A stretch of 64,000 nt of DNA from Propionibacteriales bacterium (GTDB lineage Bacteria; Actinomycetota; Actinomycetes; Propionibacteriales; Nocardioidaceae), in the NCBI GenBank assembly GCA_026392415.1, contig JAPLCC010000047.1:1-64000 (forward strand). Reading direction: 5' to 3'. The translations under genes and the position numbers were made by a program. Positions 3,605-55,930 of the stretch are shown piece by piece; within the stretch, counting starts at the first letter, position 1, and each line of letters starts with the position of its first letter. The notes under the pieces are model-generated. The model had not been told where the DNA came from, did not search any database, and saw only the letters and a program-made list of their open reading frames with translations.

Positions 3605-4849
3605 GTGGCTGAACCTTCTCGCTCGACCCGCCTGCTCCGTACGGCCGTTCCGCTCGCGGTGGTCGCTGTCGCGAGCCTCGCGGCCGTGGGCCGCGACGGC
3701 TACGAGGTGCAGGTGACCCTCGAATCGGCGACCAGTGTCGTCGCCGGCTCGCCCGTCCAGGTCAACGGCTTCGACGCAGGCAAGGTGGAGAAGATCGACG
3801 TCGTCGATGGTGCAGCCCGGCTCACTCTCTCGCTCGACGAGGACATCGCGCCCCTGCACGACGGCGCCGTCGTGATGGTCGGGTGGAAGGCAACACTCAG
3901 CGAGCGACTGGTCGAAGTGACCGACGGTCCGGAGAAGAACGCCGAGATCCCGGACGGTGGCCGGCTGGCGGGAACCATGCCGGCGCCGACCGAGATCGAC
4001 GACATCCTCAACAGCCTCGATGCCCCGACCCGCGAGAAGCTCCAGTCGCTGCTAGGCAACACCAGCGAGGTCCTCGGCGGAAAGGAGGACGAGTTCGGCG
4101 CGACCCTGCGCACCGGCGGGCCCGCACTGCGTGAGCTGGGCCAGTTGCTGAAGGCACTCGGCACCGACGGTCCGGCGATCCGGCACCTCGCCACTCGCCT
4201 CGACGACCTGCTCGCGATCGTCGCCGAGCGTGACACCGAGGTCCAGGCTGTCGTCTCGTCCCTCAGCGGCCTGACCGAACGGGTCGCCAACGAGCGCCAG
4301 CAGTTGCGCGGCACCCTCAAGGCGCTTCCTCCCACGTTGGAGCAGGCCACCAAGACCCTCGGCGACGTCCCCGATGCCGTGGACGACGTCGAGCCCCTGC
4401 TCGCGGATCTCGAGCCGGCGACCGCCAAGCTCGGTCCTGTCTCCCGAGATCTCGCCCCGCTGCTCGAGGACCTGCGGCCCTTCGCTGCGGATCTTCGTCC
4501 GACGCTCGGCAGCCTCGACTCCCTGCTGGAGGTCACGCCCGGACTGCTCGACACCGTCGACTCGGTGTCGCCCCAGGCCACGTCGATCCTGGCTGACCTC
4601 AAGAGCCCCGTCGCGTTCCTCCGGCCCTACACCCCCGAGATCGGCGGGTTCTTCAGCACCTGGGCGTCGGCGTTCGCGAACTACGACACCAACAGCAACT
4701 TCGCCCGGATCCACGCACAGGCCGGCACCACCTCGTTCAACGAGAACCCCGGCGTCGTACCGCCGGGAGTGACCAACGACCCCTTCCCGGAGCCCGGCGA
4801 GATCGTCGGTCAGGCCTGGACCGATGCCAACGGGAGTGAGCTGGAATGA
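3605..4849 (+). CDS. Mce family lipid-transfer protein, first of six (MceA position)
   Basis: A 414-residue cell-envelope protein beginning with GTG two bases after the ATPase stop. One N-terminal membrane anchor (about residues 10-26) is followed by the MCE/MlaD domain (about 33-125: YEVQVTLESATSVVAGSPVQ, later SERLVEVTDGP) and a long helical region with repeated leucines and motifs such as ATRLDDLLAIV and LRPTLGSLDSLL that builds the coiled shaft of Mce hexamers. The C-terminus is Pro/Gly rich. It shares a 4-base overlap with the next mce gene. The six different Mce proteins of such operons form a hetero-hexameric tunnel; the letter is assigned only by order. Confidence 0.9.
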   Translation: MAEPSRSTRLLRTAVPLAVVAVASLAAVGRDGYEVQVTLESATSVVAGSPVQVNGFDAGKVEKIDVVDGAARLTLSLDEDIAPLHDGAVVMVGWKATLSERLVEVTDGPEKNAEIPDGGRLAGTMPAPTEIDDILNSLDAPTREKLQSLLGNTSEVLGGKEDEFGATLRTGGPALRELGQLLKALGTDGPAIRHLATRLDDLLAIVAERDTEVQAVVSSLSGLTERVANERQQLRGTLKALPPTLEQATKTLGDVPDAVDDVEPLLADLEPATAKLGPVSRDLAPLLEDLRPFAADLRPTLGSLDSLLEVTPGLLDTVDSVSPQATSILADLKSPVAFLRPYTPEIGGFFSTWASAFANYDTNSNFARIHAQAGTTSFNENPGVVPPGVTNDPFPEPGEIVGQAWTDANGSELE

Positions 4850-6273
4850 GCAGCGCCCAACCCACGAGTCATGCCCTTCGACAGGTTGCCAGCCGCGCCC
4901 GGGTCACTGTGGTCGTCGTCGTCCTGCTGATCCTCAGCGCGCTGGTCGGCGGCAGCATGATGGCCTCGGGTCCGGACAGCCGGTTGATGCTGCGGGCGAC
5001 GTTCGCCGATGCGAGCCCCCTGCTGGAAGGCAACGACGTGCGCCTCTGCGGCGTCAAGGTCGGCACCATCGCCGCGATGCGGGTGGTCGAAGGCGGCGCC
5101 GAGGTCACGGTGGAACTGGACAAGGCGGCGCTTCCGGTCCACCAGGACGCGAAGCTCACGATTCGCCCCGTGTCGCTCCTCGGGGAGCGGTACGTCGAAC
5201 TCGACCGCGGCAGTGCCGATGCACCTGTCCTGGCGGACGGCGCCCGGCTCGGCCCCGACCAGACCGGCTCGAGCGTGGACCTCGACCAGGTCCTCAACAC
5301 GCTGGACGAGCCCACGGCCGAAGGTCTCGCGACCCTGGTCGGCACCCTCGGCCAGGGCATGGACGGAAACGGCGACGACCTCGAGCGCGCGCTGGCTGCG
5401 CTCGCTCCTGCCCTGCAGGACACCAGCGGTGTCACCGAGACGCTGAAGGAGCAGAACGCCACGCTCGGTTCGCTCGTGGAGTCGCTCTCGAAGGTCGCCT
5501 CAGGTGTCGGCACCGCCAACGGCAAGGAATTGGACCGGCTGATCGCCGCTTCGACGACGATCCTGGACCGGACCCGCGTCAACGAGTCCGCCTTCCGCGC
5601 GATGCTCGGTCAGCTGCCGTCGACGATGCGCGCGGCGATCACGACCCTGCGGCAGGTCGAGGGAACGGCGAACGCGGCGACGCCCACCCTGAAGGCACTG
5701 CGGCCGACCACGGCCGACCTGAAGGAGATCAGCGGCGAGTTGCTCGACTTCGCCAACGCCGCCGATCCTGCGCTGGCCGCGGCCAATCCGGTGCTGAAGA
5801 AGGCGGACGCGTTGATCGAGAACGCCCGACCCGTGGCGAAACTGCTGCGCCAGCAGTCGCCCGCCATCCTCAGCGACGCGAAGTCCCTGGACCCGCTGAC
5901 GCGCGACCTCGTCGGAGACTTCAGGGCCGTCATGGAGTTCGTGCGCGGCTGGGCCCTGGCCACCAACGGCAAGGACGGCCTGGCCCACTACTTCCGGGCT
6001 GGCCTGGTGCTCACGGACTACTCCGTGACCGGGCTGCTGCCCGGAGGTCTTCCGACCGGCGCCACGAGCGGAACCCCCGCGAAGTCCGGCAAGCAACCGC
6101 GGGCCGGCAGCGCCGGTTCAGGGACAGGCGCGCTCGTGCCGGACCTCCTCGACAGCGTGGGAGGCCTGCTCAGCGGCCTCCTCTCGCCCCGGACCGACCG
6201 GACCGGCGGGGTCACCGGACTCACCCCCACCCAGGAGCGCAACGCGCTCGGCCTGCTCCTCGGAGGTTCGTGA
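4846..6273 (+). CDS. Mce family lipid-transfer protein, second of six (MceB position)
   Basis: A 475-residue Mce protein overlapping the previous gene by four bases (ATGA). An N-terminal membrane helix (VTVVVVVLLILSALVGGSMM) is followed by an MCE domain (about residues 45-145, with ASPLLEGNDVRLCGVKVG and SLLGERYVELDRG) and a long alpha-helical region. The last roughly 100 residues are Gly/Ser/Pro rich and look disordered. A cysteine in the MCE domain (LCGVK) is not in a lipobox context. The gene is translationally coupled within the mce run and presumably contributes one chain to the lipid-conducting hexamer. Confidence 0.9.
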   Translation: MSSAQPTSHALRQVASRARVTVVVVVLLILSALVGGSMMASGPDSRLMLRATFADASPLLEGNDVRLCGVKVGTIAAMRVVEGGAEVTVELDKAALPVHQDAKLTIRPVSLLGERYVELDRGSADAPVLADGARLGPDQTGSSVDLDQVLNTLDEPTAEGLATLVGTLGQGMDGNGDDLERALAALAPALQDTSGVTETLKEQNATLGSLVESLSKVASGVGTANGKELDRLIAASTTILDRTRVNESAFRAMLGQLPSTMRAAITTLRQVEGTANAATPTLKALRPTTADLKEISGELLDFANAADPALAAANPVLKKADALIENARPVAKLLRQQSPAILSDAKSLDPLTRDLVGDFRAVMEFVRGWALATNGKDGLAHYFRAGLVLTDYSVTGLLPGGLPTGATSGTPAKSGKQPRAGSAGSGTGALVPDLLDSVGGLLSGLLSPRTDRTGGVTGLTPTQERNALGLLLGGS

Positions 6274-6274
6274 A

Positions 6275-7561
6275 ATGTCTGCAGTCGCCCGCAAGGAACG
6301 CAAACGTGTCGGGTCCGTCCGGGTCGGCACGGCGACGCTGGTCGGCGCCGCTGCGTTCTCCGCGTTCGCCCTGACCGCCCAGAACGGAATGCCCGACTAC
6401 GTCCCCGGCGTCTCGCGGACGTCGGTCGAGGTGGAGTTCGTCGACGCCGGCGCACTGCGCGCTGGGGACGACGTACGGATCGCTGGCGTCCGCGCCGGAT
6501 TCGTGAACTCGATCGACCTCGTCGACGGCGTCCCGGTCGCCAGTCTCGAACTCGACAACGGCCGCACCGTCCATGGCGACGCCAGCGCCACCATCGGCGC
6601 CCGCTCCGCTCTCGGACAGAAGTACGTCGAGCTCGACCCGGGCACGCCGGATGCCGGCGAGCTGGACGGCCCGATCCGGGCCGATCGGACCAGCGGCTCG
6701 GTGGAGCTGGATGCCGTGCTGGACACCCTGGACGCGAAGACCCGCAAGGCGACCGGTGTGGCTCTGCGCGAGATCGGTGGTGGCATGGCGGGTCGCGGCA
6801 CCGACCTGAACGACGGCCTCTCCACCCTGGACCAGAACCTCGAGGATCTGGGTGTCCTCTCCCGCTCGCTCGACTCTGCTCAGGGCGCGGACCTCACCCG
6901 GCTGCTCCGCACGACCGAGGTGCTCGCCACAGCGCTCGACGGACAGCAGTCGGAGCTGGCGGGTCTGACCCGAGACACCGGCATCACTCTCGATGCGTTG
7001 GCCGTGGACGGAGGGGATCCGCTCGACCAGGCGATCCGACAGTCGCCCGAGACGCTCGAGGCCGTCCGGGGTGCGCTCGAATCCCTCGACGGACCACTGG
7101 CCGACACCCGCACGGCGGTGCAGGCGCTGAGGCCGGGAGTGGAGGCGCTCGGCCTCGCGCTCCCGGACACGCGTGCACTCCTTCGTGATGCGGTGAAGCC
7201 GTTGAAGAAGGTGCCCGGCGTCTCCGACGACGCCGATGCGGCGGTCGACGACCTGACTCCGCTCCTGAAGGACGCGCGCCCCGTCGTACGGGATCTGGGC
7301 ACCGCTTTCACGCGGGCCGAGGCGCCGCTGGCAACGCTGGCGCCGTACTCCCTGGAAGTGCTGCTCTTCTTCCAGAACGCGTCGAGCGCCCTCAGCCAGG
7401 GCGACGCTGCGGGCAACTGGTTGCGGTTCTACCCGGTGGTGAACCCGGAGAACGTCATCGGCAACCTCCCGATCCAGAACCCGTTCCTCAAGCGCCAGCC
7501 CTACCCCGCGCCCGGTGAGGCACCGGCTCACCGGACCAACAACGTGAAGGTGACGCCATGA
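6275..7561 (+). CDS. Mce family lipid-transfer protein, third of six (MceC position)
   Basis: A 428-residue Mce protein whose ATG lies one base after the previous stop; a GGAGG box overlaps the end of the previous gene. A short N-terminal membrane helix (TLVGAAAFSAFALT) precedes the MCE domain, with VEFVDAGALRAGDDVRIAGV and ALGQKYVELDPG as conserved pieces. A heptad-rich helical region follows. The C-terminal part has the APLATLAPYSLEVLLFFQNA stretch, which is shared in variant form by several Mce proteins of this operon. It overlaps the next gene by four bases. Confidence 0.9.
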   Translation: MSAVARKERKRVGSVRVGTATLVGAAAFSAFALTAQNGMPDYVPGVSRTSVEVEFVDAGALRAGDDVRIAGVRAGFVNSIDLVDGVPVASLELDNGRTVHGDASATIGARSALGQKYVELDPGTPDAGELDGPIRADRTSGSVELDAVLDTLDAKTRKATGVALREIGGGMAGRGTDLNDGLSTLDQNLEDLGVLSRSLDSAQGADLTRLLRTTEVLATALDGQQSELAGLTRDTGITLDALAVDGGDPLDQAIRQSPETLEAVRGALESLDGPLADTRTAVQALRPGVEALGLALPDTRALLRDAVKPLKKVPGVSDDADAAVDDLTPLLKDARPVVRDLGTAFTRAEAPLATLAPYSLEVLLFFQNASSALSQGDAAGNWLRFYPVVNPENVIGNLPIQNPFLKRQPYPAPGEAPAHRTNNVKVTP

Positions 7562-8964
7562 GTACGCGCCGGAAGCCCTCGGTGCCACTGCACCTGTCGT
7601 CGGCGCGGATCGGCGTGGTCATCCTCGTGGTGACGCTGCTGGTGTCGGTCGCGCTGTTCAACAAGGACCGGATCAACTCGATGCTGCTGGGCGGTGACAA
7701 GGTCGAGGTCCACTTCGACCGTGCCTACAAGCTGCGTGCCCACGTCAGCCAGGTGAAGGTCGCCTTCGTGGTGGTCGGCAAGGTCGTCGCGGTCCGATCC
7801 GAAGGCGACGACGCGGTCGTCGAGCTCAAGGTCGAGAGCGACGTGCTCGAGTCCCTGGGCAGTGAACCGTCCGCAACGATCCGACCGACCACGCTTCTCG
7901 GCGGCTCCTACTTCGTCGACCTGCAGCCGGGCGGTGACCCGGGCGCGTTCACGGCCGGTTCGATTCCCGTCGAGCGAACGGCGGTGCCGGTCGAGCTCGA
8001 CAAGGTGGCGCGCGCCCTGCAGCCGAACGCCCGAGCCGGGCTCCAGGGCACCGTCAGAAACCTCGACGAGGCGCTCGACGAAGAAGGCGAGCGCGCCCTG
8101 CGTGACCTGGTCGACGCCGCTCCCGCTGCCCTCGACCCCGCCGCGGAGGTCCTGGACGCAGCCCAGGGCCTGCATCCGAACCGGGACCTCACCGACCTGA
8201 CCTCCGGGATGGAGAACCTCGGCCGCGTGCTGAGCCGCAAGGACGGTCAGCTCGACCAGATCCTGACTGACCTCCAATCCGCGTCCGGGGTCCTGGACAA
8301 CCGGTCATCCGACGTCGCCACTGCGGTCGACACGCTTCCGGATGCACTCGACTCGACCCGAACCGGCCTCGCCGACCTGTCCGGAAGCCTCGACACCCTG
8401 CGGGACGTCTCGGCCGACACCCGCCCTCTCGTGCGCCAGCTCGACAAGACCCTCGGCGTCGCTGGTCCCGTCGTGAAGGACGCCCGCCCTCTCGTCGCAG
8501 ACCTCCGCAGCCTGATGAGTGACGCCCGACCTGTCGTCAACGCACTCGTTCCGACGTCGGAGAGCGCGGACGCCGTGCTCACCGATCTCGAGGGCAAGGT
8601 CCTCGACCGCGTGGACAAGGACGTCATGCCCTGGCTGCACGCGAAGTACGTCGGGAAGGGGCCCTATCAGCGCACCTCCGGCGCGAAGCCGACCTATCAG
8701 GAGCTTGCCTACATGTTCGCCACTCTGGACCGCGCTTCCGGGCAGGTCGACAAGAACGGCCACGCCGTGGGTTTCCAGCCCGGCATCGGGTCCGGCTCCG
8801 TCGGCGGCATCCCGATCTCGCTCGAGCAGATGTTCAAGATCCTCACCGAGGCCTTCTACCTGCCGCAGCCGGTCGACACGCTCCCGCCCGTCAGCGGCGG
8901 TGGCGGCACGCCGTCGAACACGCTCGACAACCTCCTGTCCGGACTTCTCGGAGGTGGTCGGTGA
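7558..8964 (+). CDS. Mce family lipid-transfer protein, fourth of six (MceD position)
   Basis: A 468-residue Mce protein, four-base overlap with both neighbours. The N-terminal helix (IGVVILVVTLLVSVALF) anchors it; the MCE domain runs from about residue 45 to 135 (VEVHFDRAYKLRAHVSQVKV, LLGGSYFVDLQPGG). It diverges somewhat from its siblings in the first strands of the domain. The helical shaft region contains several DARPLVADLRSL-like repeats. The C-terminal tail is Gly/Pro/Ser rich (PPVSGGGGTPSN). Role inferred as one subunit of the Mce hexamer linking the inner membrane to the outer envelope. Confidence 0.9.
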   Translation: MSTRRKPSVPLHLSSARIGVVILVVTLLVSVALFNKDRINSMLLGGDKVEVHFDRAYKLRAHVSQVKVAFVVVGKVVAVRSEGDDAVVELKVESDVLESLGSEPSATIRPTTLLGGSYFVDLQPGGDPGAFTAGSIPVERTAVPVELDKVARALQPNARAGLQGTVRNLDEALDEEGERALRDLVDAAPAALDPAAEVLDAAQGLHPNRDLTDLTSGMENLGRVLSRKDGQLDQILTDLQSASGVLDNRSSDVATAVDTLPDALDSTRTGLADLSGSLDTLRDVSADTRPLVRQLDKTLGVAGPVVKDARPLVADLRSLMSDARPVVNALVPTSESADAVLTDLEGKVLDRVDKDVMPWLHAKYVGKGPYQRTSGAKPTYQELAYMFATLDRASGQVDKNGHAVGFQPGIGSGSVGGIPISLEQMFKILTEAFYLPQPVDTLPPVSGGGGTPSNTLDNLLSGLLGGGR

Positions 8965-10208
8965 TGAACGTCCGTCGTCGTCTCAGGAAGAACTGGGAGC
9001 GGGTCCGCACCGAACCCGGCCTCAAGAAGAACGTCACCGTGCTGGCGTTGTTGTTGGTCCTCGCGACTGCTGCCGGTTCGTGGGTGCTCGGCAACCAGCG
9101 ATTCACGGCGCCCTGGGCCGACCGCTTCGAGTTCGCGGCCGAGTTCGAGGCCGTGCCCGGAGTGGCGCCCGGCAACGGACAGGAGGTCCGGATGCACGGC
9201 GTGATCGTCGGACAGATCACCGACGCCCACGTCAACGACGAGGGCCGCGCCGAACTGACCATGTCACTCGACCCCGGGTACGACGTCTACGACAACGCCA
9301 AGCTGGTGCTCCGTCCCAAGAGCCCCCTGAACGAGATGTACGTCGAGGTCGACCCCGGCGGCGCGCCCGGGACGAAGCTCGCTTCCGGCGAAACCCTTCC
9401 CGTCACCAACACCGCCCGTCCGGTCCAGGTCGACGAGGTACTGGGGCACCTCGACGACCAGGCACGCTCTGCGCTGACCACGCTGCTCGCCGAGGCCGAT
9501 GTCGCACTGGTCTCCGCCGACGAGACTCTCCCCGCAGGCCTCGACCAGACCCGGGAGGTCGCTGGTGATCTCCGCCCCGTTCTCCTGGAGCTGGAGAGGC
9601 GGCGCGGCCAACTCGCGACGCTGGTGACGGCGCTCAGCGACATCTCCGATGCTGTTGCATCCGACGACGAGCGACTCACGACGCTGGCCGACGGTTTGAG
9701 CAGCACGGTCCGCACGATCGCGGGACAGTCCGACGACCTCGACGCCACCCTCGCCCAGCTGCCTGGCCTGGCCACGAGGCTCGCATCCTCGACCAAGGCA
9801 GTCAGTGACCTGACCGAGCAGCTCGACCCGACCCTGCGCGACATCCATGACGCCACGGGCACCCTGCCGAAGGCGCTCAAGCGGATCGACAGCACGGTCA
9901 ACCGGTTGAGCACGACGGTCAGGGTCGCGCGGCCGACGATCGCTCACGCCCGTCCGCTGGTGGCGGACCTGCGGCCGGTCGTCGCCGACCTGCGTCAGGC
10001 CCTCCCGGTCGCTGCCCGTTCGACGGCGCGCCTGGATCCCGCGACGGCGATGCTCACGAGGTACCTGCCGGACCTGGGTGCGTTCATCGTGAACACGCAC
10101 TCCCTCACCAGCCTGCGCGACGCGAACGGCGGCATCCTGCGCGGCCTGCTGACGGTCAACAGCACCTCCTTGCCCACGGACGCTCTCGCCGGCCTCGCCG
10201 GCAACTGA
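8961..10208 (+). CDS. Mce family lipid-transfer protein, fifth of six (MceE position)
   Basis: A 415-residue Mce protein with a basic N-terminus (MMNVRRRLRKNWERVR) and a membrane helix near residues 28-46, then an MCE domain with FEAVPGVAPGNGQEVRMHGV and PLNEMYVEVDPGG. In mycobacteria the protein at this position is usually a lipoprotein; here no lipobox cysteine follows the hydrophobic segment, so this one is anchored by its helix only. The helical region carries repeated LVADLRPVVADLR units. The stop codon sits inside an 11-bp tandem repeat (10202-10234). Confidence 0.9.
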   Translation: MMNVRRRLRKNWERVRTEPGLKKNVTVLALLLVLATAAGSWVLGNQRFTAPWADRFEFAAEFEAVPGVAPGNGQEVRMHGVIVGQITDAHVNDEGRAELTMSLDPGYDVYDNAKLVLRPKSPLNEMYVEVDPGGAPGTKLASGETLPVTNTARPVQVDEVLGHLDDQARSALTTLLAEADVALVSADETLPAGLDQTREVAGDLRPVLLELERRRGQLATLVTALSDISDAVASDDERLTTLADGLSSTVRTIAGQSDDLDATLAQLPGLATRLASSTKAVSDLTEQLDPTLRDIHDATGTLPKALKRIDSTVNRLSTTVRVARPTIAHARPLVADLRPVVADLRQALPVAARSTARLDPATAMLTRYLPDLGAFIVNTHSLTSLRDANGGILRGLLTVNSTSLPTDALAGLAGN

Positions 10209-10234
10209 CGGCCAACTGACGGCCAACTGACGGG
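10202..10234 (+). repeat. Three tandem copies of CAACTGACGGC at the end of the fifth mce gene
   Basis: Three head-to-tail 11-base units (10202-10212, 10213-10223, 10224-10234); only the last base of the third differs. Each unit contains TGA, and the first provides the stop codon of the upstream gene. The repeat fills most of the 41-base gap to the next mce gene, the only mce-mce junction in the run without overlap or near-contact. Confidence 0.85.
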
Positions 10235-10249
10235 ACGACGGGAACAGAC

Positions 10250-11560
10250 ATGAGTGACACGGACGCAATCGGGCTCCAGCCGCGGAGCAGGATGATCATC
10301 GTGGTGGCCTTCACCGGCTTCTGCGCGTTGATCTTCAGCTTTCTCTGGACCAACTCGGGCGGCAAGGTCCCGGTCTTCGCTGGAACCGGCTACACGATCC
10401 AGGTCGACGTCCCGCGGGTGGGCAACCTCGTCTACTTCTCGGACGTGATGGTCGCTGGCGTCAAGGTCGGCAAGGTCGCCGAGGTGACGGAGCAGGGTGA
10501 CCACGCCCGCATCGTGATGGAGCTCAACGACTCCATCGCACCGCTCCACGAAGGTGCGACGGTGCAGATCGGGGCCAAGTCCCTGGTCGAGGAGTCGTTC
10601 GTCGAGGTGACCGACGGCAAGGGCGCCGAGCTGGCTTCCGGTTCCCGGCTCGCAGCAGGCGCAGGCCGCGCCCCGGTCCAGCTCGACGACGTCCTCAAGA
10701 CGCTGGACGCGCCGACACGGAAGTCGTTGCGAGCCGTGCTGCGCTCGATGGAGGGCGTCGCAGACGGCAACGAGAAGGCTGTCGCCGACGCGATCCGCGG
10801 ACTCGGTGACATGGGCCGCCAGGGCACCACGGTGCTCGATGCCCTCGCTGCGCAGGGCAAGGACATCCAGGGCCTGACCCGCAACGCCGCCCGGGTCCTC
10901 ACAGCCCTGTCGGAGCGCCGTACCCAGCTCTCCTCGCTGGTCCAGGACGCCAACTCGCTCGTGTCGGCAACGGCCGGGCAGGCTGACGACATCCGTGCGG
11001 TGATGCGTGCGCTGCCGCCGCTGATGACCACTGCCCGTGAGAGCAGCGACGACCTGACCCGTCTCAGCGCTGCGCTGGCCCCGGTCGCCCGCAACCTGTC
11101 GGCAGCAGCGCCGCACCTGACGGCCGCACTGCGCCAGCTGCCGGCGACCTCTCGCGACCTGCGCGCCACCCTGCCGGCGCTCGACCGGGTCCTCGACGGT
11201 GCGCCCGACACCCTCGAACGGGTTCCGGCGTTCGCCGACAACGTCGAGGGGCTGCTGCCCCCGGCGGAGTCCGTGCTGGCCGATCTCAACCCGATGCTGG
11301 GCTACCTGGCGCCGTACGACCGCGACCTGGCGGCGTGGTTCACCAACTTCGCCCAGACCGTGGGCCTGGGTGACGTGAACGGCAAGGCGTTCCGGGTGAT
11401 GCCGGTCTTCAACGAACAGTCCTTCAAGGGCTATCCCTTCTCGACCAATCTCGGTCCGCTCGACAAGTACAACCCGATGCCCGGCCCCGGCTCGGCCGGC
11501 TCTCCCGGTCCCTACGGCGACACGTCGTACCCGCGCATCAAACGGGACGCAGGGGACTGA
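10250..11560 (+). CDS. Mce family lipid-transfer protein, sixth of six (MceF position)
   Basis: A 436-residue Mce protein starting at ATG 10250, 41 bases after the previous stop. The membrane helix (MIIVVAFTGFCALIFSFLW) is followed by the MCE domain (about residues 42-140: IQVDVPRVGNLVYFSDVMVA, SLVEESFVEVTDG). The helical region includes LRQLPATSRDLRATLPALDR. The C-terminal APYDRDLAAWFTNFAQTVGL stretch resembles that of the first Mce protein. It closes the six-gene mce run and is followed after three bases by the MMPL gene. Confidence 0.9.
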   Translation: MSDTDAIGLQPRSRMIIVVAFTGFCALIFSFLWTNSGGKVPVFAGTGYTIQVDVPRVGNLVYFSDVMVAGVKVGKVAEVTEQGDHARIVMELNDSIAPLHEGATVQIGAKSLVEESFVEVTDGKGAELASGSRLAAGAGRAPVQLDDVLKTLDAPTRKSLRAVLRSMEGVADGNEKAVADAIRGLGDMGRQGTTVLDALAAQGKDIQGLTRNAARVLTALSERRTQLSSLVQDANSLVSATAGQADDIRAVMRALPPLMTTARESSDDLTRLSAALAPVARNLSAAAPHLTAALRQLPATSRDLRATLPALDRVLDGAPDTLERVPAFADNVEGLLPPAESVLADLNPMLGYLAPYDRDLAAWFTNFAQTVGLGDVNGKAFRVMPVFNEQSFKGYPFSTNLGPLDKYNPMPGPGSAGSPGPYGDTSYPRIKRDAGD

Positions 11561-11563
11561 GCC

Positions 11564-13903
11564 ATGACCGACGAGCGGGGCGCAGGCGGCGTGGGGGCGC
11601 GCACGGCCACGACCCGGGCGCGCGCTGCCCTCGCGGTGTTCGCGCTCATCGGGTTCGGGGCGGTGATTGTCCTGGGCCTCGCTCGTCTCGAGATCCGCAC
11701 CAGCCTGGATTCGTTCCTGCCGGCCGATGATCCCCAACTGGAGCAGTACCAGGCGTTGGGGGAGGACTTCGGGGCCGAGCCGATCGTGATCCTGGTGGAG
11801 ACAGGGGAGCGGACGGACCCCGTGCTGAAGACCGACCGGATGCCTGACCTGGTGCGGCTCGAAGGCGAGCTCGCCGCGCTGCCCGGGGTCACGAGCGTCT
11901 ACGGGCCGGGCACCACCCTCAACCAGATCGCCGGCCGGGCGAAGGATCTGCTCTCCGAGCTCGTCGGACGCCGGGACGCGGAGATCGCCCTCGCCGAATC
12001 CACAGCACGCGACCGCGGTGCTCCCGCTGCTCAGGTCCGGCGCGCGGGCGACGACGCCCGCGTGCGCTTCGACGCCCGCTACGGACCACTGCTGGTCTCG
12101 GGCATGGACGGCGGCCTGCCCACCCTGGGCAACCAGCGGTTCATCGATGCGGTCGTCTACGCCGCCGACGGCGGTTCCCGCGCCCAGTGGCAGTTCGTCG
12201 TGCCGCGGCCCCAGTCGGTCGCCATCCTCGTCCGGCCCGCCGCCGACCTCGACGCAGGTGGTCTGGCCCGCCTGGTCGACAAGGTGAACGCGACCGTCGA
12301 CGGTCGACGGCCGGCGGGGACCACCACCACCGTCACCGGGACGGCAGTGATCGTCGCCGCACTGTCCGACCGGGCGATGGCCGACGCCCCACTTCTCGGC
12401 GTGCTGGCCGTGGCCGGCCTGACCTTCTGCTTCGCCGCCGCCGTGTGGATCCGGCGGCGCCTCCGGCTCCTGCCGATCGCGCTGACCCTCGTCAGCCTCG
12501 CCGTCTCGCTGTCGGTCTTCGGCTGGGCCGGGAGACCCGTGACGCTGGGCATGGTGGCGTTCGGGTCCGTGTTGCTGGGCCTGGGGTCGTACTACCCGAC
12601 GTACGCGCTGACCGGTGCGTCGCGCAGGACTGTCGCGGTGGTGGGCACCGCTTCGGCGGCCAGCCTCGCGACGCTCGCCCTCTCGCCGATGCCGCTGGTG
12701 CGCGACATCGGGCTGTTGCTCGGAGTCGGCGTCACCGTCTGTCTGGCATTGACCCTCGCGACCAGCGCGCTCCTCAAGGGCACCTCGAACGCAATGTCGG
12801 CGGCTGGTGCAGTCGGGGATGCGAACCGCGGCGGGCTGAACACCACCACCCTGCGGGTGTTTGCCCTTCTCGGCATCGTCCTGGCCGCCTGGGGCTGGCA
12901 GGTGCTGCCTGACATCCCGGTCGCTGCCGAGGTCGAGCACTTCGCCGGCGGTCTGTCCGCGCTCGACGACGCCCGGCACGCGGAGGACGTGCTCGGCAGC
13001 TCGGGCGAGATCGACGTGGTCCTCAGCGGTGTCGACACCCTCACCCCGGAGGCCCTCGCCTGGATGAATCGTGCTGAGGACGTCATTGCCCGCGGCCACG
13101 GTGACGTGATGCAAGCGGTCCTGTCGCCGGCCACCTTCCTCGACTTCCTCGGCGCCGAGCCGACCCAGGACCAGGTCGAAGCCGCAGTCCGACTGCTCCC
13201 CGAATACCTCGCCGGCTCCGTGATCGCGCCCGACCGGTCGCAGGCCCTGATGACCTACGGGGTACGCCTCGACGACGTCAGCGGACTCGCGAACCTTCGC
13301 ACCGAGTTGATCAAGGAGCTGCCCGTGCCGCCCGCCGGCTACGAGGTTCAGCTCGTCGGCCTGCCCCTGGTGCTCGTCCAGGGTCAGGAGGTGCTCAGTC
13401 AGGACAGGTACGACGCCAGCCTGATCGGGATCGCCGTGGCCGCCGCGGTGCTCCTGCTCGGCCTCCGACGCCGTGCCGACGCCTTGCGCGCTGTGCTCGC
13501 TGCGCTGGTCGCCACCGGCTGGGGCTTCCTTCTCCTGGACCTGAGCGGACGCGGTTTCGACCCGGTCACGATCGCGCTCGGCACGCTGACCGTCGCGGTC
13601 GGGGCCGAGTTCACCGTCGTGCTCGCCGAGGCTGCCCGCCGGGCGAGCCGGACCCTGACCCGCACCGTGGCGCTGATGGCGGCTGCGTCCGCTGTCGGCT
13701 ACCTCGTGCTCCTCGGGTCGGGACTCGCCGCAGTTCGTACCTTCGGCGCCGAGCTCGCGCTCGGGGTCGGCTTCGCGTTCGCCGCGGCCAGCCTGGTTGT
13801 TGCCGCGACGACCCGTCCTGTTCGACCGTCCGTGCCAGAGGCCGATCCGGTTGAGGAACCAGCGGTCGAAGCACCCCGGAAATTGGAGGCTGTCCATGCC
13901 TGA
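11564..13903 (+). CDS. MMPL/RND-superfamily membrane transporter linked to the Mce operon
   Basis: A 779-residue protein of the MMPL/RND exporter superfamily. It shows the family layout: one helix near residues 24-43, a periplasmic domain of about 230 residues, a first block of membrane helices (about 270-420, with GVLAVAGLTFCFAAAVWI), a second periplasmic domain and a second helix block (about 620-750). Such proteins move lipids using the proton gradient. It follows the last mce gene by three bases and overlaps the next gene, so it probably acts with the Mce importer, for example by handling the lipid on the envelope side. The direction of transport cannot be read from sequence. Confidence 0.85.
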   Translation: MTDERGAGGVGARTATTRARAALAVFALIGFGAVIVLGLARLEIRTSLDSFLPADDPQLEQYQALGEDFGAEPIVILVETGERTDPVLKTDRMPDLVRLEGELAALPGVTSVYGPGTTLNQIAGRAKDLLSELVGRRDAEIALAESTARDRGAPAAQVRRAGDDARVRFDARYGPLLVSGMDGGLPTLGNQRFIDAVVYAADGGSRAQWQFVVPRPQSVAILVRPAADLDAGGLARLVDKVNATVDGRRPAGTTTTVTGTAVIVAALSDRAMADAPLLGVLAVAGLTFCFAAAVWIRRRLRLLPIALTLVSLAVSLSVFGWAGRPVTLGMVAFGSVLLGLGSYYPTYALTGASRRTVAVVGTASAASLATLALSPMPLVRDIGLLLGVGVTVCLALTLATSALLKGTSNAMSAAGAVGDANRGGLNTTTLRVFALLGIVLAAWGWQVLPDIPVAAEVEHFAGGLSALDDARHAEDVLGSSGEIDVVLSGVDTLTPEALAWMNRAEDVIARGHGDVMQAVLSPATFLDFLGAEPTQDQVEAAVRLLPEYLAGSVIAPDRSQALMTYGVRLDDVSGLANLRTELIKELPVPPAGYEVQLVGLPLVLVQGQEVLSQDRYDASLIGIAVAAAVLLLGLRRRADALRAVLAALVATGWGFLLLDLSGRGFDPVTIALGTLTVAVGAEFTVVLAEAARRASRTLTRTVALMAAASAVGYLVLLGSGLAAVRTFGAELALGVGFAFAAASLVVAATTRPVRPSVPEADPVEEPAVEAPRKLEAVHA

Positions 13904-25703: not shown

Positions 25704-25742
25704 GGTCTCGAGACGGTTGCTGCGCAACCTCCTCGACCAACG
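25704..25742 (+). repeat. Dispersed 39-bp palindromic repeat, copy A
   Basis: A 39-base element starting GGTCTCGAGACGG, with a GGTTGC/GCAACC hairpin in the centre and ending CTCGACCAACG. It sits two bases after the thiolase stop and ends 12 bases before the next start codon. The copy at 50596-50634 is its exact reverse complement (39 of 39 bases), and the copy at 55699-55737 differs at one base. Confidence 0.92.
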
Positions 25743-50580: not shown

Positions 50581-50634
50581 CTGGTCGAGGAGCGGCGTTG
50601 GTCGAGGAGGTTGCGCAGCAACCGTCTCGAGACC
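50581..50634 (-). repeat. Dispersed palindromic repeat, copy B plus a partial copy
   Basis: Bases 50596-50634 are the exact reverse complement of copy A at 25704-25742. The element begins directly after the fliL stop codon on the minus strand. It is followed by a second partial unit (50581-50595) repeating TGGTCGAGGAG and able to form a small CCGCT/AGCGG hairpin. The pair fills part of the fliL-fliM gap, the largest gap in this half of the cluster. Confidence 0.92.
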
Positions 50635-53119: not shown

Positions 53120-53193
53120 CGCGGCACCTCCGTGTGCGTGGATCGATTCCAGGAGCCATCCATGGCTCTCTTCATGGGGTCCATCGGCCGCCC

Positions 53194-53260
53194 GGGGTAG
53201 TCCCTTACGAAAAGCACCGCGACACGCTGATTTGCGGTGCTTTTCGTCAGGGACTACCCC
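53194..53260. other. Long inverted repeat, 27-bp arms, in the flgE-flbD gap
   Basis: The arm at 53194-53220 and the arm at 53234-53260 pair at 26 of 27 positions, with one mismatch after GGGGTAGTCCCT and a 13-base loop at 53221-53233. The arms start GGGGTAGTCCCT and end AGGGACTACCCC. It begins 11 bases downstream of the flgE stop (minus strand) and ends 74 bases before flbD. No T-run follows, so it is not a classical terminator; it could block decay or readthrough, or be a miniature mobile element. Nothing in the loop looks like a gene. Confidence 0.85.
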
Positions 53261-53271
53261 GCGCGCCGACC

Positions 53272-54664: not shown

Positions 54665-55930
54665 TCACAGGTTCCGGTCGAGGCGACCGGGGGTCGGGGT
54701 CGAGAGGGGGACGACGCCCGGGGCTGCCGCGTGTCGTCCTCCCTGCTCGTAGGGGTGGCCGGGCCGGCTGTCGCGGTGCTCGCCGCGGGACTGGCCGGAC
54801 TGGGCGGGCTGGTCCGACTGGCCGAAGTGGTTGCCCTCGCCTGAGGGACCGGACCACGTGGGGCCGGCGTCGGCGCGCGTCGGCGCTGCCGTCGCGGGAA
54901 GGGGCATCGCGCTGGACGGGTCGCGGACCAGCACGCGGGCCTCGGTGGCCCCGGCCCGCTCGAGCATCCGCTGGAGCTCGGGCGCACCCGTGGCCAGGGC
55001 CTGGCGGACGACGGAGTCGCCGGCCTCACCGGACATCCGGACCCGGACGGCACCGTCACGGACGACCAGCGTCACCCGGACCTCACCGAGCTGTGCCGGC
55101 TGCAGCGTCAGCGTGATCCGGTGCGTCCCGTTCCCGCTGCTGACGAGCCGGGTGATCTCCGGGAACACCTGCGTCACGACCGCGCGCTCCACGAGGTGGC
55201 CGGTCTCGGCCCGCGAAGTGGGAGAAATGGGCGCCTGAGGTGGGACGTTCGGGGTCTCGAGTCGCGAGTTGTGTGCTGCGGTGGGCGGTACGGCGGCCTG
55301 GTCTCCCGCAGGCCGCTGCTCGAGGAGGGCATGGGGACGGCCGGTCCCCGGGCCAGGGAGGTCCTGGAGTTCGCGACGACCAGCTGTCGACGGCGACACG
55401 GCGTCGCGGGACGGCTGCTGTGCGCCGTCTTCGAGCTCCGGGCGACCTGTTCCTGCCGGTGACAGCGGGTCTCGGGACGGTTGCTGGGCGAGCTCCCCGA
55501 CCGGGGTGGCCGGCGCCGCAGCGGTCGCGGCGCTGGACGTGGTGGCGGGAAGGGCCGGGGTGGCCGGCACTGCGGGGGCGAGGAGCGCAGGCACGGGCGC
55601 GGGCGCGGGTCGTTGGTCGAGGAGGGCCGTCTCGCGGCCCGTCTCGAGACCCTGGGACGGGATGATCTCCGGGGCGACAGCCGGCGTCTGAAGCAGGGGG
55701 TCTCGAGACGGTTGCTGCGCAACCTCCTCGACCAGCGGCGGATTCGGCGCCATCGCCGGCGCCTCGACCGACGGCGCAGCGGGCGTCGGCGCGGGCATCA
55801 CGGCGAGTGCAGCGGCAAGCGCGTCCATGAACGCGACCTCGCCGTCGGCGCCGGGTTGGGCGTCGGTCGGCGTACCGGCCTCGGCGGGGGTGGGGGCCAC
55901 GGGGGCCGGGAGGAAGGGCGCAATGCTCAT
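54665..55930 (-). CDS. fliK: Flagellar hook-length control protein FliK with repeat-derived N-terminal region
   Basis: A 421-residue FliK. The conserved C-terminal domain (about 265-330) contains RITLTLQPAQLGEVRVTLVV and QALATGAPELQRMLERAG. The first 250 residues are Pro/Ala-rich and contain recurring peptides: AQQPSRD three times (71-77, 148-154, 170-176), GRETALLDQRPA-like units at 98-109 and 197-208, and SRLETP at 222-227. These are translations of the dispersed palindromic repeat and its diverged copies. FliK measures hook length, and this region would be the ruler part. It overlaps the NlpC/SLT gene by one base. Confidence 0.88.
   Translation of the reverse strand: MSIAPFLPAPVAPTPAEAGTPTDAQPGADGEVAFMDALAAALAVMPAPTPAAPSVEAPAMAPNPPLVEEVAQQPSRDPLLQTPAVAPEIIPSQGLETGRETALLDQRPAPAPVPALLAPAVPATPALPATTSSAATAAAPATPVGELAQQPSRDPLSPAGTGRPELEDGAQQPSRDAVSPSTAGRRELQDLPGPGTGRPHALLEQRPAGDQAAVPPTAAHNSRLETPNVPPQAPISPTSRAETGHLVERAVVTQVFPEITRLVSSGNGTHRITLTLQPAQLGEVRVTLVVRDGAVRVRMSGEAGDSVVRQALATGAPELQRMLERAGATEARVLVRDPSSAMPLPATAAPTRADAGPTWSGPSGEGNHFGQSDQPAQSGQSRGEHRDSRPGHPYEQGGRHAAAPGVVPLSTPTPGRLDRNL
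55253..55737 (-). repeat. Cluster of in-frame palindromic repeat copies inside fliK
   Basis: Copy C at 55699-55737 matches copy A at 38 of 39 bases. A variant at 55611-55651 keeps both flanks but has a GGGCCG/CGGCCC hairpin instead of GGTTGC/GCAACC. Diverged copies follow at 55468-55502 (30 of 35 bases as copy A) and about 55404-55436 (24 of 33), with partial ones at about 55314-55349 and 55253-55268. Both orientations occur and none interrupts the fliK reading frame. Confidence 0.85.

Follow-up and report, generated by a model that had tools for sequence, protein, structure and literature searches.

In-frame copies of a dispersed palindromic repeat in the FliK ruler and other proteins of a Nocardioides genome

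A 39-nt palindromic repeat that is dispersed through a Nocardioides genome is carried in-frame in ten protein contexts, is present or absent at corresponding sites depending on the species, and occurs in several copies within the ruler of the flagellar hook-length control protein FliK, without lengthening of that protein. In related species the same loop can hold a different palindrome family. The fliK gene and two dispersed copies of the repeat lie within the window, by which is meant the whole stretch of 64,000 nucleotides analysed here (Table 1). Very likely this is a REP- or RPE-like palindrome of Nocardioides that is kept in-frame in tolerant linkers, with the FliK ruler acting as its collector.

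According to this explanation, a tagged hairpin repeat would be copied round the genome by some machinery, presumably via transposition or ectopic recombination, with some copies landing in-frame and selection keeping those in loops or linkers that tolerate a foreign, hydrophilic 13-residue peptide. The FliK ruler may be the most tolerant place, being free in sequence while constrained in total length, and would have gathered four or more copies that share a reading frame, including two intact ones, while another palindrome family would have overwritten this part of the ruler in other species. The element peptides probably act only as spacers, and the length of the ruler is probably held by selection. 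In Salmonella, as described in excerpts of PMC6126814, swimming is best at the natural hook length, which gives a reason for FliK length to be held, provided that the same length logic applies in Nocardioides.

The host, a soil bacterium, belongs to a free-living actinobacterial genus with many species, in which several hundred kilobases are comparable per species pair. Loops that carry different palindromes in different species, in FliK, in the NAD-glutamate dehydrogenase (NAD-GDH) and in a DUF2126 protein, allow one to ask whether such palindromes land harmlessly or serve as useful linkers. FliK suits such a question well, since its length can be read out in the hook: in Salmonella, hook length follows that of FliK and changes by 0.2 nm with each residue (PMC6126814, excerpts).

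The repeat and its copies in genes

Element A consists of a 35-nt imperfect hairpin, GGTCGAGGAGGTTGCGCAGCAACCGTCTCGAGACC, joined at just one end by a conserved tag of 4 nt, amounting to 39 nt or 13 codons. Genome-wide, 94 copies occur at ≤3 mismatches, 47 of which are exact, with 49 in forward and 45 in reverse orientation, while the reversed pattern, used as a control, has 0 matches in the genome at the same threshold. A looser pattern, GGTCGAGGAG-N(5-35)-CGTCTCGAGACC, returns 103 matches in the genome, at least two of them nested, and its control again 0. The tag, read in 93 copies, is most often CGTT (52), followed by CGGA (16), CGGT (13) and CGTC (2), and the 35-nt core contains no stop in any of the six frames. 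Compared with shuffled sequences, the DNA folding of A and of a variant, B, gives z -3.0 and z -2.8, respectively, and variant copies alter both sides of the inner stem jointly (GGTTG/CAACC, GGTCG/CGACC and GGCCG/CGGCC). Within the genus, element A is found in 51 of 118 genomes, being most abundant here (94 copies), followed by G055 (76), G033 (75) and G093 (52), where G000 denotes the genome of the window and the other G numbers denote Nocardioides genomes.

Elements A and B also form inverted pairs, for example in fliK, in the DUF2126 gene, on C14, C53 and C57 and twice on C59. A fixed, mobile A-B composite is not supported, as gaps and spacers vary among sites. At three loci (L128, L074 and L079) element A recurs in arrays with a spacing of 47 or 49 nt, in some cases beside inverted B.

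The fliK gene of the window is accompanied by genes for a FliI-type ATPase, FliJ, FlgD and an FlgE-type protein, as identified by Pfam, and its product has the features of a FliK family member. Each repeat copy within it was given a score for its match to the consensus of the genome, and codon shuffles of fliK (300 and 500) provided the null (Table 1). Copies A1, A2 and A3 have a common orientation and codon phase, while B1 and B2 are inverted relative to the A copies and share a codon phase of their own; B1 lies 47 nt beyond A1 along fliK, both being in the ruler half, and its core recurs at other sites in the genome. An earlier note, made from the letters of the window, had reported no fewer than four recognisable copies, together with two partial ones, in both orientations and without a break in the frame. 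The repeats are real and the orientations are as described, with A and inverted B all in one open fliK frame, while the recount gives two intact copies, two decayed, one borderline and one unproven. The recurrent peptides that had been listed are likewise present in that open frame, AQQPSRD three times and ALLDQRP and ALLEQRP once each.

Table 1. Positions in the window of fliK, of the repeat copies in its ruler and of two dispersed copies
Feature	Positions	Strand	Details
fliK, flagellar hook-length control protein	54665-55930	minus	421 aa; Pfam PF02120 Flg_hook, E 2e-11
FliK C-terminal domain, residues 264-337	54920..55141	minus	outside the repeat region; coordinates computed from residue numbers
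A1, intact element A	55699-55737	minus	tag CGCT and exact 35-nt core; 13-residue peptide; consensus score 38/39 against a null maximum of 24
B1, intact variant B, inverted relative to A1	55611-55651	plus	41/41; fliK reading GLETGRETALLDQR
A2, decayed element A	55468-55506	minus	31/39; 13-residue peptide
A3, decayed element A	55402-55440	minus	27/39, null 99% = 24, maximum 24; peptide LEDGAQQPSRDA
B2, strongly decayed B-like copy, borderline	55314-55354	plus	27/41, null 99% = 26, maximum 27; peptide GPGTGRPHALLEQR
Possible element end, RLETP	55253-55265		11/13, equal to null 99%; no better than chance
Dispersed element A with tag	25704-25742	minus	identical over 39 nt to 50596-50634; not scored in-frame
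Dispersed element A with tag	50596-50634	plus	not scored in-frame

When both flanks are scored for codon usage, with 2588 codons as the training set, 12 of the 94 copies of element A come out in-frame within genes; two have too little flank to be judged, and the 80 others are scored as outside one shared frame, a group in which true intergenic copies are mixed with cases of weak codon score. Ten of the 12 candidates are backed by homologous flanks or by Pfam domains that surround or span the site (in fliK by full-length homology), and two were dropped from the count, C19:60822 being the start of an ORF and C59:131773 having a domain downstream only. The ten contexts are CysS, where the element lies between the catalytic and DALR domains, two biotin-dependent carboxylases, NAD-GDH, an indolepyruvate-type oxidoreductase, a penicillin amidase, a DUF222 protein, the DUF2126 protein, fliK and the pncB-pncA junction. 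Six of the ten use the same 11-residue frame (p 0.0024 for the named frame, ~0.015 for a frame chosen afterwards). The earlier note had likened the repeat to Rickettsia palindromic elements (RPEs), and since ten in-frame copies of this dispersed palindrome are supported by domains or homologous flanks the comparison is apt; an absence of its peptides from other proteins, which the note had named as evidence to the contrary, was not found, the element being in-frame in other genes.

At the pncB-pncA junction (L027, G000:C22:176900-176934), an exact element A is located between nicotinate phosphoribosyltransferase and nicotinamidase, with one open frame running through both, which is either an element-made fusion or chance read-through.

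The same loops in relatives and the length of the ruler

In CysS, element A is found in G000 alone, with 20 of 20 orthologues read. In NAD-GDH, also with 20 of 20 read, it lies at the same place in G000 and G093, while a second palindrome family, VVEVRGAPATSLET, is present in G041 and neither family in 17. For the DUF2126 protein, matched in 12 of 18 genomes, the loop was compared in nine, where it contains A and inverted B in G000, an A-type element in G055 and a second-family type in G091; the G093 loop has a different palindrome, and five loops have none. The palindrome of G093 (L104) forms a strong hairpin that has no second copy in a 400-kb sample of its genome, and is therefore a putative repeat at most.

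FliK was matched in 92 of 215 genus genomes, and 39 loci were fetched, of which 33 have a readable C-terminal motif, with the other six excluded. Among these 33 orthologues, element A occurs in G000 only and the second family in five (G034, G082, G080, G145 and G041). Every one of the five scores higher than all 30 shuffles, the match of G034 being no test of its own since the query was derived from it. The copy content of fliK differs between species (1/33 for element A, 5/33 for the second family), and the constancy of repeat-derived segments in all relatives, which the earlier note had named as telling against its view, was not observed. The second family is itself dispersed in carriers, with 31 copies in G034, 23 in G041 and 14 in G082; G080 has it in fliK with just two further copies in the genome, and G145 lies outside that sample. 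Its forward form folds with z -2.96 and its reverse form with z -0.06, the latter no better than shuffles.

On the NAD-GDH tree, G000 and G093 are sisters (86/73) inside a firm clade with G091 (100/99), while G080, G082, G145 and G034 fall together (93/97) and G041 is separate. Because the element carriers fall apart on this tree, the FliK ruler has been colonised at least twice, probably three times. The rulers of G093 and G091 (L033 and L034) contain other short peptide repeats, TTALP, TPELGFV and VTNPNSG, and turnover of the ruler therefore involves several kinds of repeat. From presence and absence between species we infer that the repeat is mobile; no transposition event and no target duplication was seen at the compared sites, where clean empty sites are absent because loops differ even among close relatives.

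The earlier note had also proposed that the inserted segments lengthen the FliK ruler, which is not supported by the lengths compared. FliK totals 421 amino acids here against 417 in G093 and 416 in G091, the two closest element-free orthologues, with 273 residues from the start to the C-domain against 259 and 256; as total lengths are nearly equal with and without elements, the five copies of ~13 residues are therefore almost fully offset. Carriers of the second family are no longer than their clade-mates, measuring 197, 199, 208 and 219 from start to C-domain against 195-218 in seven clade-mates without the family, and G041, also a carrier, measures 242 against 248 in G055, 250 in G099, 230 in G163 and 228 in G033. 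As far as can be read from these sequences, the elements appear to replace ruler sequence in FliK and not to add to it.

A tenable but tentative alternative is that part of a gene is overwritten through ectopic gene conversion, with the ~100 dispersed copies as donors, leaving the length of the gene nearly constant and the copies uniform. The conserved length of FliK agrees with this, as does the linker of the indolepyruvate oxidoreductase, a basic stretch of 24 residues in G093 (88% identical) against 22 residues here including the 11-residue element peptide, and thus no net gain. When the two carboxylases are aligned with solved homologues, these already have residues opposite the element-coded stretch and there is little net gain, which fits replacement better than plain insertion. 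The NAD-GDH copy, moreover, is identical at 38/39 positions between G000 and G093 despite 47 of 113 flanking four-fold sites differing (1 of 11 inside, p 0.024), a conservation that would be accounted for if gene conversion homogenised the copies or if the DNA itself were under constraint. However, most relatives have shorter loops in NAD-GDH and DUF2126, with NAD-GDH 9 residues longer here than in G091, CysS has gained 8 residues relative to G093 and 13 relative to the shortest loops, and insertion followed by trimming yields the same picture as replacement.

Origin of the copies within the FliK ruler

Instead of repeated arrival of the element, one A-B unit could have been duplicated inside fliK and then have decayed, and the spacing of the copies lends itself to such an account, with A1-B1 and A3-B2 both having a 47-nt gap and forming 127-nt units that lie 297 nt (99 codons) apart. 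Yet the two spacers agree at 20 of 47 positions, which is not significant (shuffle p 0.074), and the flanks are no more alike than expected by chance. In addition, A1-B1 is intact but A3-B2 decayed, and other A-B pairs in the genome have different gaps of ~11 to 39 nt. The duplication is the less likely account.

The elements might also be regarded as portable linker cassettes, an idea that is put forward with considerable doubt. Hairpins open in all six frames would overwrite flexible linkers by recombination with little change in length, and the frame that survives would suit the place, for example a basic 11-residue peptide in a basic linker and a different 11-residue peptide at other sites. 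The FliK ruler, with its length held and its letters free, would then record this turnover, as a result of which the same loop would be rewritten by different families across species.

Recruitment of AQQPSRD and ALLxQRP for a job in FliK, such as binding in the export channel, with both peptides under purifying selection, seems improbable. Codon changes within AQQPSRD of A2 and A3 are synonymous in six of six cases against one of six in the preceding VEEV (Fisher p 0.015), a possible sign of selection for the peptide beyond mere tolerance; the numbers are small, though, with ascertainment biased by the finding of copies through similarity, and the peptide occurs in no other FliK among the 33 readable orthologues, the two closest included.

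That the copies merely reflect chance, or the codon usage of a ruler that is GC-rich and of low complexity, is all but excluded. The ruler is rich in Ala and Pro, relatives' rulers contain other kinds of repeat, and both B2 and the fragment at 55253-55265 score close to the null. But A1 and B1 agree exactly with the dispersed consensus, A2 and A3 score higher than all 500 codon shuffles, whose maximum is 24, and such similarity is ruled out for all four, each being above every shuffle.

Relation to known palindromic repeats

The preferred reading, that of a REP- or RPE-like palindrome kept in tolerant linkers, bears comparison with several known systems. In-frame palindromes are best known from Rickettsia. 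The RPEs, as portrayed in excerpts of three papers (PMC10969869, PMC2229807, PMC3733652), resemble the present element in being dispersed palindromes that comprise several families and that lie in-frame in conserved genes of unrelated kinds, some of them for metabolic enzymes. Classic RPEs, in contrast, belong to Rickettsia and measure ~105-150 bp, whereas the present element has another sequence and comes from another phylum, with one ruler carrying several copies and different species carrying different families in the same loops. It behaves like an RPE but is not filed as one, given its host, Nocardioides, and its length of 39 nt.

The CGTC REPs, in the excerpted sections of Di Nocera et al. 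2013 (PMC3733652), are palindromes of 20-40 nt in high copy number with an unpaired tag at one end, comparable to the 35 + 4 nt and 94 copies here, and they too are dispersed, occur as pairs of opposite orientation and include in-frame copies. Their extragenic copies lie between unidirectional or convergent genes, as do those found here, where the copies with both flanks judged comprise 15 unidirectional, 12 convergent and 0 divergent cases (of the 94, 55 are without assignment and 12 in-frame). For these REPs the same sections give no dedicated transposase as known. Their required tag is CGTC (or TGTC, CCTC; PMC3733652), whereas here CGTC is found in 2/93 copies and CGTT predominates. GTAG REPs and REPINs, which go with RAYT, share the short tagged hairpin and its occurrence as singles and inverted pairs, but GTAG is not among the listed tags of the 93 copies, and Y1_Tnp (PF01797, the RAYT-type transposase) has no match in 118 genus genomes including G000, the control having matched in 5 of 14. 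RAYT mobilisation is thereby rejected within the genus as sampled. Because neither the CGTC tag nor the RAYT link held when tested, the element is not filed in the CGTC or GTAG REP families, and Actinobacteria are absent from the phyla listed for GTAG or CGTC repeats in those sections (Di Nocera et al. 2013, PMC3733652). Intragenic MITEs (ERIC, Correia/NEMIS) are also non-autonomous repeats whose open frames are fused to genes, according to excerpts of PMC2229807, but they exceed the present element in length and carry terminal inverted repeats and target duplications. Close relatives here offer no clean empty site.

In-frame REPs and RPEs are already in print (excerpts of PMC3733652, PMC10969869 and PMC2229807), as is an earlier case of different REPs at approximately the same site, in Xanthomonas recB (Di Nocera et al. 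2013, PMC3733652, excerpted). Titles and abstract openings listed from the open-licence literature describe no Nocardioides repeat of this kind, no intragenic palindromes in Actinobacteria and none in FliK, and excerpts of PMC5526307 mention palindromic repeats as CRISPR only. As far as that literature was searched, the host group and the FliK ruler as a collector are new, and so is the occupation of loops by different palindromes across species, bar the one earlier case in recB.

Elsewhere in the window, a strong inverted repeat at 53189-53265, with 32-nt arms that are 94% complementary and 13 nt apart, is located just downstream of the flgE-type gene and is terminator-like. Related 46-nt stretches at 3991, 5277, 6703, 10678 and 13006, spanning 3991-13051, suggest a row of paralogous genes.
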